From contig NC_006087.1 of the NCBI RefSeq assembly GCF_000007665.1, positions 2,294,001 through 2,358,000 on the forward strand: a stretch of DNA of 64,000 nt, given 5' to 3'. Shown piece by piece: positions 16,623-18,969 of this stretch. This stretch comes from Leifsonia xyli subsp. xyli str. CTCB07 (GTDB lineage: Bacteria > Actinomycetota > Actinomycetes > Actinomycetales > Microbacteriaceae). The notes under the pieces are model-generated. The model saw only the letters and a program-made list of their open reading frames with translations. It was not told the origin of the DNA and ran no database searches. Position numbers and translations under genes: made by a program. Each line of letters begins with the position of its first letter. The first letter of the stretch is position 1.

Positions 16623-16926
16623 TCAGGCCGCGAGTGCGGCGGTGGTGTTCATGATGGTGTCGAATTCGATGGGGGTCAAACGGCCCAGGCGGGTTTGGCG
16701 TCGGCGTCGGTGGTAGGTGCGTTCGATCCAGGTGACGATCGCGATGCGAAGCTGGTCGCGAGTGGCCCAGGTTCGACGGTCGAGAACGTTCTTCTGCAGT
16801 AGTGCGAAGAAGCTTTCCATGGCGGCGTTGTCGCCAGCGGCGCCGACACGTCCCATCGAGCCGACCAGGCCATGGTGGGCCAGCGTCCGGAGGGCTTTCC
16901 GGCTTCGGAATTGGCTGCCGCGGATG
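16623..16926 (-). pseudogene. IS3-family OrfB C-terminal part, split by IS110
   Basis: RGSQFRSRKALRTLAHHGLV, AAGDNAAMESFFALLQKNV, TWIERTYHRRRRQTRLGRLT, PIEFDTIMN. This continues exactly the fragment at 18339-18452, so the 1.4 kb between them was inserted into the HSD/RGSQ junction of this OrfB. Confidence 0.85.
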
Positions 16927-16938
16927 CTCTCCTAAGAG

Positions 16939-18048
16939 TCAAGCGGCGATTTTCCTCGGTTTGGTATTCGGGGCGATGTGTTTGATGCCGGGGTTGAGGA
17001 GGAAGTAGACCTCGCGGGCGAGGTATCGCTTGAGGCAACGGATGATCTCCATCTTCGAGTGGCCTTCCGCGGTCTTCTTCGCTGCGTAGGCCTTCGTTCT
17101 CGGGTCGATCCGGAGCCTGCTGATCACGGCGAGGTGGAGGGCACGGTTGGCTTGCCGGTCGCCACCACGGTTGAGTCGGTGTCGCTGGGTCATTCCGGAG
17201 GACGCGGGTAGCGGGGAGACGCCGCAGAGCATCGCGAACGCGGCTTCGGACTTCATGCTCTCGGGGTTGTCGCCTGCGGTGACGAGCATCTGCCCGGCGA
17301 CTTCGATGCCGATTCCGACGCGTTCGAGTAGCTGGGGGGCGAGGGACTCGACGATGGGGTTGATCAGGTCGTCAAGGTCGACGATCTCGTCGGTGAGCTC
17401 GATATAGCGGCGGCCGAACGACTTCAACGCGACCCGGTAGGCGACAACGGGATCGGTCGCGTTCGAGGTGTCAGGACGCCAGGCAGCGAGATGGCGGATC
17501 AGCTGCATACGGGTGAGGTTGCGTACCTGGTCACGAACCTCGTCGGGTGCGGCGACGATCGACATCCGCAGCAGCTGCAATGTGTTGCGGCGTTCACGGA
17601 CCGCCTGGGCTCGCGCAACCCGCAGGATTCTCAGGGCCTCGACCGCGCCGTCCTTGGACTTCGGGATCGTTGTACGGCGCTCGTGCAGTGCGGCGCGGGC
17701 GGCATTGATCGCGTCCAGGTCATCGTCTTTCCCTTTCCGGCGTCGGTCTGACCGATCCGGCCGGTCGACCTCGAGGATCGTCACCTCGTTCTTCGCGAGA
17801 TGCCGGGCGAGGCCAGCGCCGTAGGAGCCCGTCCCTTCGATTCCGATCCGCACCAACGCGCCTTGACTGCGCACCCATGCCAGCAGGGCCCGATAACCCG
17901 CGCGAGTCGTGGAGAAGCTGTGGGTTCCGAGGATTGTCCCGGTCTCGTCGACGACCGCGGCGACGTGGATCTCCTTATGGGTGTCGACGCCGGCGAACAC
18001 CGACGTTCGTGATTGAGGTTGCTTGCCGGTGTCGGGGATGATGGTCAT
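16939..18048 (-). CDS. IS110-family transposase (DEDD recombinase)
   Basis: Start ATG 18046-18048 (MTIIPDTGKQ) has GGAG seven bases upstream; an alternative ATG at 18087 lacks one. The N-terminal RuvC-like DEDD domain has FAGVDTHKEIHVAAVVDETG, IGIEGTGSYGAGLARHL and GKDDDLDAINAARAA. The C-terminal transposase_20 domain has AFAMLCGVSPLPASSGM and HRLNRGGDRQANRALH, with the conserved Ser/Gly region. About 369 residues, apparently intact. IS110 enzymes use an element-encoded bridge RNA to choose donor and target. Confidence 0.9.
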   Translation of the reverse strand: MTIIPDTGKQPQSRTSVFAGVDTHKEIHVAAVVDETGTILGTHSFSTTRAGYRALLAWVRSQGALVRIGIEGTGSYGAGLARHLAKNEVTILEVDRPDRSDRRRKGKDDDLDAINAARAALHERRTTIPKSKDGAVEALRILRVARAQAVRERRNTLQLLRMSIVAAPDEVRDQVRNLTRMQLIRHLAAWRPDTSNATDPVVAYRVALKSFGRRYIELTDEIVDLDDLINPIVESLAPQLLERVGIGIEVAGQMLVTAGDNPESMKSEAAFAMLCGVSPLPASSGMTQRHRLNRGGDRQANRALHLAVISRLRIDPRTKAYAAKKTAEGHSKMEIIRCLKRYLAREVYFLLNPGIKHIAPNTKPRKIAA

Positions 18049-18089
18049 GTCGTGCTCCGATCTGTTCGCATGGGCGGGGAACGGCACCG

Positions 18090-18340
18090 CGCACCACCAG
18101 ACCGGCGGACAAGACAGTGATGAGCACCTGTTGGCGCAGGCTCTCCTTAAGTCACTCCGGCGGTGAGGCGTGACGCCTCACCGGATGTTCTCAGGGGACC
18201 GACAGATCCGTGGAAAGACAGCAGATGTCGATCGGCGTGAGAGTCAGGAACCCCTGAGAACACGCGGCACCAGCATCCTTGCGCGTCCATCGCTGTGAGG
18301 GTCAGGACCCCCGAGAACACCAGCACGAACAGTCTCACTA
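18090..18340 (-). ncRNA. Predicted IS110 bridge RNA (leader of the element)
   Basis: The non-coding leader read on the minus strand is structured: a 9-bp hairpin (18162-18182) and a 12-bp inverted repeat (18186-18197 with 18251-18262). Two segments match the insertion-site flanks. 18289-18297 is ATCGCTGTG, identical to the right flank at 18340-18348. 18263-18269 is CGCGGCA, the complement of the left flank TGCCGCG at 16916-16922. Nearer the transposase, GCTCTCCT at 18140-18147 equals the element's own left end at 16926-16933, as a donor guide would. The 5' target-loop then donor-loop order fits published IS110 bridge RNAs. Confidence 0.6.
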
Positions 18341-18452
18341 TCGCTGTGGACCACGCAGCCGACGACGTTCCCGCGCATCGCGACAGCGTTGTTGAGTGCC
18401 GCGACGACCAGGCGGGACTTCATTCGGGAATCGATGGAGTACTTGACAGCCG
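18339..18452 (-). pseudogene. IS3-family OrfB middle fragment
   Basis: [36 protein letters not shown] is the integrase core segment that precedes RGSQFRSRK at 16926. It is disrupted upstream of about 18452. Confidence 0.78.
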
Positions 18453-18600
18453 CTCGCGCGTCGCCGGAATCGCGCCCACTCTGGCCGCGGCGGAAGCCCT
18501 CCTCCAGCGCACACCACCTCACCGTGTTCCTCGCGATGCCCACAACCGTCTGCGCCAACTCGCGCGGGGCGACCGGAGTCGACCTCTCGGCTCCCGAAGA

Positions 18601-18822
18601 ATGAAGGAAGAAAAGACGCCCACTAGCACCGTCAAATGGTTCAACTCGAAGAAGGGGTTCGGCTTCATCGCCCCGGATGACGGCAGCACCGACGTCTTCG
18701 TCCACTACAGCGAGATCGCCGCCACCGGCGGTTACCGCAATCTCGACGAGAACCAGAAGGTCGAATACGACCTCGCGCAGGGACCCAAGGGTCCCCAGGC
18801 AGCGAACATCCGACCGGCCTGA
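18601..18822 (+). CDS. Cold-shock domain protein, CspA family
   Basis: A 73-residue single-domain RNA/ssDNA-binding protein with [15 protein letters not shown] (RNP1 KGFGFI), VFVHYSEI (RNP2) and the usual tail [20 protein letters not shown]. It acts as an RNA chaperone. The first eight residues (MKEEKTPT) differ from the usual MAxGTVKWF start, and the upstream region is IS3 debris. The native start may therefore have been lost and replaced; the promoter is not obvious. Confidence 0.88.
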
Positions 18823-18969
18823 TGAATCCGGTGCCCGGTCGAAAGGCCGGGCACCGTTCCGTTAAACCGCACCGACGAACACCCAGCAACCGCGCCTACA
18901 CTTGCCGCATCTCGGGCGATCCGCCCACATCCTCGGCTGGGAAATCGTCACGACACAGCGGAGGAACGC

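Follow-up and report, generated by a model that had tools for sequence, protein, structure and literature searches.

The element and its insertion site

The window, by which is meant the whole stretch of 64,000 nucleotides of Leifsonia xyli subsp. xyli that was analysed, contains on its minus strand an insertion element with a DEDD recombinase gene and, ahead of it, a leader in which guide-like segments alternate with complementary arms (Table 1). As placed from the junctions of relatives, the element ends with a pyrimidine before AGTGAG on one side and with GAGAGCAT on the other; the boundary base at 18340 was likewise deduced from relatives. The element interrupts an IS3-type transposase gene within the HSD-RGSQF codons, splitting the Asp codon into GA and C. 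The IS3-type assignment was made from translations and annotation, with Pfam applied only to the right flank of the window copy (rve_3 and rve_2). No target duplication was seen, and in relatives both junctions are in frame. The left flank ends in HSD, HAD, HTD, NTD or NSD in 45 of the 48 aligned rows, so that these insertions share the target of the ISEc21 subgroup, the codon for the second catalytic Asp of IS3-type transposases.

The product of the element carries an N-terminal DEDD (RuvC-like) domain and a C-terminal Transposase_20 domain (Pfam DEDD_Tnp_IS110, 8.5e-26; Transposase_20, 6.3e-15; both above cut-offs). Non-coding stretches of about 290 bases ahead of the ATG and 15 bases past the stop at 16939 give the long upstream and short downstream regions typical of the IS110 group. 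Membership of that group is clear by sequence, and the initial annotation, an IS110-group element with a bridge-RNA-like leader, is borne out by the Pfam domains together with a same-sense left guide and a donor guide.

Table 1 Features of the element and its leader (positions in the window; minus-strand features are read from the higher to the lower number)
Feature	Position	Strand	Basis or remark
Whole element, 1417 bp	16924..18340	-	Junctions of four genomic copies and relatives
DEDD recombinase (transposase) gene	16939..18048	-	Open reading frame and Pfam; ATG 18048 picked by comparing relatives
TTGACT, candidate -35 box across the joined ends of the circular form	16937..16942	-	Promoter role by analogy with ISEc21 and IS621
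Arm1, 5' arm ahead of guide A, complementary to arm3	18301..18325	-
Putative left target guide A, CACAGCGAT, equal to the left flank of the window copy	18289..18297	-
Spacer stem; by prediction it pairs with arm1, concealing guide A, while arm3 is engaged by arm2	18269..18278	-	Consensus fold
Arm2, 5' arm ahead of guide B, complementary to arm3	18243..18267	-
Putative left target guide B, CACGCCGAT	18231..18239	-
Putative right target guide, CCACGGAT, common to both forms	18206..18213	-
Arm3, single 3' arm, partner of arm1 or arm2 in closing the target loop	18178..18203	-
GC-rich hairpin between target and donor loops, overlapping the end of arm3	18162..18182	-	Alignment fold
Putative left donor guide, AGGAGAGC, repeating the right tip of the element	18140..18147	-
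Putative right donor guide, TCACTGTC, complement of GA + C + AGTGA	18113..18120	-	47 of 48 aligned rows agree

Genomic copies

Four copies of the element, identical over the 1414 bases searched, are present in the Leifsonia xyli genome (2,584,158 bases in one contig). Their left flanks are of two kinds, CACAGCGAT in one copy and CACGCAGAT in three (two of the three share one left flank). The left flank of the window copy equals guide A at 8/8 positions; the other three copies fit guide B at 7/8. Two kinds of left flank among identical copies argue against a single fixed left guide, by the criterion given in the initial annotation itself, and such a guide was rejected on this ground and because the insertions of relatives fit either A or B.

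The flanks of the four copies (L001 to L004, L001 being the window copy) are also mosaic: L002 and L004 have the same left flank with different right flanks, and L001, L003 and L004 have a right flank in common with different left flanks. The IS3 halves may have been shuffled by recombination between copies or by the element itself.

Leader organisation

The leader, read on the minus strand, repeats its arm-and-guide unit in tandem, first as arm1 with guide A and then as arm2 with guide B; the complete order is arm1, guide A, spacer, arm2, guide B, right guide, arm3, GC hairpin, donor guides. The repeat is evident in the nucleotides as two direct repeats (D1, 28 nt, 82%; D2, 14 nt, 93%; spacing 58 and 57 bp), and the complementarity of arm3 to both 5' arms as two inverted repeats with a common arm (I1, 18181-18197/18251-18267; I2, 18186-18200/18305-18319). 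The published criterion drawn from IS621 and ISEc21 is a single target loop with one left guide; here two left guides share one arm and one right guide. We consider it likely that an IS110 bridge RNA (seekRNA) is encoded by the leader, in which two left target guides are alternatives and one right guide is common to both.

The initial annotation had instead read one target loop, with a left guide at 18297-18289 and a right guide at 18269-18263. Its matches are present in the letters: ATCGCTGTG at 18289-18297 and at 18340-18348, CGCGGCA at 18263-18269 as the reverse complement of 16916-16922, and GCTCTCCT at both 18140-18147 and 16926-16933, the last supporting a donor guide (18147-18140) that repeats the element's own right tip. 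Of the two stems it named, 18186-18197/18251-18262 lies inside I1, and 18162-18182 returns as the hairpin 18182-18162 of the alignment fold. When the leader was shuffled 20,000 times with its dinucleotides preserved, 26 shuffles contained the left 9-mer, 748 the right 7-mer and 2 both; the left match is therefore far from what chance would give, while the right one by itself is unremarkable. The left segment remains plausible as a same-sense guide and was an incomplete account, being the distal of two (guide A) while the proximal guide B fits more insertions.

The right segment failed when leaders and flanks of relatives were compared, as the initial annotation had proposed; the left guides followed the flanks and this segment did not. 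Across 39 elements its aligned counterpart matches the right flanks no better than shuffled flanks (142 matched, shuffle mean 145.7; 8,764 of 10,000 shuffles reach 142). Arm2 takes in most of it, and in the consensus structure it forms the outer end of that arm, beside the spacer stem; it was rejected as a right guide and is regarded as a stem segment. Despite its exact matches to the flanks of the window copy, the one-loop model is thus highly improbable, given three identical copies with another left flank and a right segment that does not track the right flanks of relatives.

Two bases of the window leader are peculiar to its lineage, 18264 (C for G in GCCGGG) and 18236 (G for T in a guide B of CACTCC). 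They pair together in the single-sequence fold, and the change at 18264 breaks one arm2:arm3 pair; this may be a compensatory change, and it creates the 7-mer match.

Right target guide and donor guides

The segment 18213-18206 tracks the right flank, with 199 matched bases against 177.4 in shuffles (0 of 10,000; n=39). Its last two bases complement the last dinucleotide of the element (AT, GT or TT; AT in the window) in 39/39, and it matches 7 or 8 of 8 bases in 8/8 of the insertions that fit guide A only and have a right flank available. The right donor guide, read as its complement, is GAC + AGTNA, with N tracking the left tip of the element, in 47 of 48 rows (exception, L019); in the window, GA + C + AGTGA is the target dinucleotide joined to the left tip. 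Guides for both target strands and both donor ends, by which IS110-group RNAs are recognised, can thus be assigned, as judged from base matches.

By these complements, the dinucleotide of the element is complemented in the target loop and the GA of the target in the donor loop. The crossed arrangement would fit the handshake pairing described for IS621 (PMC11208158), though here the two dinucleotides differ from each other. A core dinucleotide common to target and element, as in IS621, was considered and rejected, the dinucleotides being GA in the one and AT, GT or TT in the other.

Left flanks and guides A and B

Left flanks were scored against the aligned A and B segments at eight positions. 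From the 48 aligned rows five duplicates were dropped (L004, L055, L057, L154, L155), and the remaining 43 were joined by L192, L142, L171, L173, L165 and L191 to give 49 insertions, partly non-independent since some have an element or flank in common. Left out were L152 (left end truncated), L193 (left end decayed; its flank AACACGGAT and A AACACTGAT would have spoken for the two-guide reading), L170 (flank CACAGCGTT, single-guide type), L172, L166, L167 and L187-L190.

Among 36 distinct combinations of flank, A and B, the codon class of the flank is that of B only in 23, A only in 7, both in 1 and neither in 5. With third codon positions ignored, a rule chosen after the data had been seen, 35 of the 49 insertions fit only B, 10 only A and 4 neither. 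The four (L012, CTTCTCGAT; L014, GAATGGGAT; L015, CATGCGGAT; L053, CACACCGAC) differ from both guides at non-wobble positions; the flanks of L012 and L014 are without recognisable motif and are possibly rearranged.

The match to guide B (35/49) compares with 19.56 when B is shuffled within clades (0 of 20,000), and changes in its own sequence go with changes in the flank, which supports B as a guide: CACGCY (window, Microvirga) goes with mostly HAD flanks, AACACC (Niveispirillum) with NTD, and CACAGC (ISEc21 type; L142, L171, L173) with CACAGC or CATAGT.

When guide A was shuffled within clades over the 49 insertions, the mean number fitting A only was 4.17 and none of 20,000 shuffles reached 10. 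Five of the six added rows are single-guide elements, whose A entry cannot match and lowers the shuffled mean; the test was therefore rerun with single-guide elements removed, giving 10 against 5.59 (16 of 20,000; 239 by the eight-base score). With related rows also collapsed, the values within clades were 8 against 4.65 (134 of 20,000; 684 by the strict eight-base score). Collapsed proteobacterial rows alone gave 663 of 20,000 (strict eight-base score, 6,230), and actinobacterial rows alone, nearly all alike in their A segments, 4,339 of 20,000; pooled runs of the stricter test gave 0 to 27 of 20,000. The association of guide A with the flank is strong when pooled, moderate within clades, and weak in the smallest or strictest subsets; the weakness of the strictest within-clade tests slightly lowers our confidence in the two-guide reading.

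The insertions fitting A only have CACAGY flanks in L001 (the window copy), L013 and L022 and NTD flanks in L121, L131, L132, L133, L136 and L192; the remaining case is L138. An NTD flank occurs in 0 of 31 elements without an NTD-type A or B against 5 of 11 with an NTD-type A (Fisher p = 0.0005), and within Proteobacteria in 0 of 11 without an NTD-type guide (p = 0.035). The cleanest comparison of A with B is a pair of Antarctobacter plasmid copies from one strain, with one difference in 1375 and leaders identical over 280 nt, inserted at AACACCGAT (A = AACACTGAT) and at AACAGCGAT (B = AACAGCGAC).

These cases bear on the possibility that only guide B works, guide A being a relic of an older target half-loop and the A-like flanks mismatched B insertions or old events. 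B alone does fit 35 of the 49 insertions, several elements have a degenerate A, ISEc21 relatives that still transpose have none (PMC11187229), and the collapsed proteobacterial rows under strict scoring (6,230 of 20,000) are compatible with it. Yet B scores only 5 or 6 of 8 against the A-type flanks of L001, L013, L022, L121, L131, L133 and L136, which A matches, and neither the restriction of NTD flanks to elements with an NTD-type guide nor the identical Antarctobacter leaders at both site types agrees with B acting alone. We regard a B-only leader as unlikely.

Pairing of the arms and predicted folds

In 31 elements with two guides or a degenerate A, the predicted duplexes average -28.6 kcal/mol for arm1:arm3 and -36.4 kcal/mol for arm2:arm3, and native partners beat swapped ones in both (0 of 5,000 each). 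In five elements without guide A, arm2:arm3 is kept (-28.8 kcal/mol), whereas arm1:arm3 (-11.8 kcal/mol) is no better than swapped (1,385 of 5,000). Pairs were counted in separate actinobacterial and proteobacterial leader alignments (17 and 15 leaders, respectively): paired cells amount to 94.8% and 93.2% for arm2:arm3 and to 91.6% and 89.1% for arm1:arm3, falling to about 33-52% when the partner is slid along. The covariation score exceeds all 500 shuffles in all four counts (two arms, two clades). Further pair types were reached by 22 (actinobacterial arm2), 224 (actinobacterial arm1), 384 (proteobacterial arm2) and 36 (proteobacterial arm1) of 500 shuffles; for pairs with changes on both sides the counts were 0, 35, 4 and 40, respectively. 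Two of the five covariation measures are thus unexceptional for arm1 (35/500 and 224/500; 40/500 and 36/500). The arm1:arm3 complementarity could be inherited, arm1 and arm2 being copies of each other.

Consensus folds of both clades contain arm2:arm3 only, a point in favour of guide B acting alone; arm1 pairs with the spacer and guide A sits in a hairpin of its own. In single-sequence ensembles of 37 rows, arm1:arm3 is favoured in 6 (L001 of the window, L012, L013, L015, L125, L149) and arm2:arm3 in 31. The predicted preference does not track the guide used: L022, with an A-type flank, prefers arm2:arm3. The minimum energy of the window leader is modestly below that of shuffles (z -1.78).

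Two accounts in which both guides work can be set against these folds. In one, which we judge about evenly poised between right and wrong, the RNA would be bistable and hedge between codons, the tandem left guides competing for the single arm3 and right guide, with the idle guide A hidden by the spacer. In the other there would be no switch of fold, and one long transcript would yield two processed RNAs or find another partner for the A form. ISEc21 makes a long and a short seekRNA, for which its authors propose processing (PMC11187229), and guide A can sit in its own hairpin with the spacer; but only one arm3 and one right guide serve both left guides and the spacer does not track the right flank, so that arm3 would be needed for an A form to have a right guide. 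The account without a switch seems unlikely.

Proposed mode of action

Under the two-guide reading, the leader would, most likely, be transcribed from the joined ends of the circular form, with the TTGACT of the right end as candidate -35 box. Each left guide would stand behind its own 5' arm (arm1 with A, arm2 with B), and either arm could pair with arm3, so that the RNA would offer A with the right guide or B with the right guide. As A and B spell different codon versions of the Asp motif, one element could insert into, and perhaps excise from, sites of two classes. The donor loop, which comes next as in other IS110 elements, would bring in the ends of the element. Of this scheme, the letters themselves show the repeat, the complementarity of arm3 to both 5' arms, the recurrence of the layout and the agreement of flanks with A or B; we infer that the RNA is transcribed, that the recombinase takes up both forms and that the folds interchange. 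Excision of ISEc21 also needs matching flanks (PMC11187229); such a requirement would favour keeping both guides once both types of site are occupied.

If the bistable reading holds, one transposon could reach a catalytic motif in its synonymous (Ser TCN/AGY) as well as its non-synonymous (HSD/NTD/NSD/HAD) forms, a motif that the transposases it targets cannot freely change. More generally, a natural RNA whose single scaffold bears two left guides would show by what means IS110 elements broaden their target range and how new specificities can arise by duplication of a half-loop, would provide a natural model of bridge RNAs with two targets, and would explain identical copies in differently spelled sites.

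Relation to known elements

ISEc21, an IS110-group element of E. coli, targets the codons around the second D of the DDE motif of IS3 transposases; its leader lies upstream of the gene, with the bottom-strand match 5' of the top-strand match, its promoter is formed by the joined ends, and no target duplication arises (PMC11187229). The window element shares with it the target, the position of the leader, the strand order of the matches and the absence of a target duplication. In the annotated ISEc21 (L142) flank and guide are both CACAGCGAT. ISEc21 has one left guide, its half with arm1 and guide A being missing or unrecognisable, whereas the window element has both halves.

The same two-guide leader is found in ISMch6 (Methylorubrum extorquens CM4 plasmid pCMU01, L150), with A = CACAGCGAT, B = CACTCTGAT and flank CACTCGGAC; its guide A equals the guide of ISEc21. 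ISMch6 has been described as a natural redirection of ISEc21 by three altered bases in the bottom-strand guide, and the main-text passages of PMC11187229 consulted here do not mention a second guide equal to that of ISEc21.

In IS621 the target loop precedes the donor loop, the 5' side of the loop pairs with the bottom strand and the 3' side with the top strand, and handshake dinucleotides are present (PMC11208160, PMC11208158); the window element resembles it in loop order, in the strand pairing of its guide sides and, as proposed above, in the handshake dinucleotides. IS621 has one target loop, one left guide and a CT core common to target and donor (PMC11208160, PMC11208158), unlike the family of the window element, with two left guides and a pre-cut dinucleotide of GA in the target and AT, GT or TT in the element. 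Each bridge RNA described in these papers (PMC11187229, PMC11208160, PMC11208158) has a single target loop and a single left guide, and no bridge RNA with two left guides was found among the matches listed in open-licence PMC literature, though one may be in print elsewhere. The IS110 bridge-RNA leader as such is already known; the second left guide is what appears new.

Distribution among relatives

The two-guide layout recurs in Actinomycetota genomes and plasmids, in Alphaproteobacteria and in Halomonas, and its guides read as codon versions (HSD, HAD, NTD, NSD) of the motif that surrounds the second catalytic Asp in IS3-type transposases. A working guide A was unrecognisable in the Marinobacter, Pandoraea, Niveispirillum and enterobacterial elements examined, including ISEc21, and is degenerate in the actinobacterial L011, L019, L052-L055 and L116, from which guide A would seem dispensable. 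On a tree of 36 transposases, in which L013 is an unreliable long branch, the two-guide label requires 7 changes (56 of 500 shuffles as low) and the single-guide label 3 (1 of 500); one origin of the two-guide layout followed by losses is possible.

Wider searches gave few matches. Transposase matches of about 49-56% identity had no pair of guide-like motifs upstream (regular expression); the right-guide context pattern was found in 1 of 296 genomes of the phylum, that of the window itself, and in no viral contigs; the donor-loop pattern in 1 of 394 genomes, the centre genome itself. The actinobacterial transposase alignment gave 0 of 40 candidate stretches in viral contigs, and the leader of L121 had no match in phages. 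In Rfam 15 (E up to 1) the leader was unmatched, the only match being a sub-threshold one to the cspA thermoregulator outside the element (36 bits against 78), at 18572-18859, across a small cold-shock-like reading frame that adjoins the broken IS3 gene.

CCTGAC stands ahead of both guides in the window (18306-18289 and 18248-18231). In box C/D RNAs, box D reads CUGA. The relation of IS110 RNAs to box C/D RNAs is discussed in PMC12045711.

Another pair of spellings is found in L138 (Acetobacter ascendens plasmid), with an HSD guide A (CACTCCGAT) and a guide B, TATTCCGAT, that would be YSD. The Microvirga lotononidis plasmid carries five copies in one record (L149-L155); among these, L153 has a left flank, CAGGCTGAC, outside the usual motif yet matching guide B at 7/8, possibly an off-target insertion.
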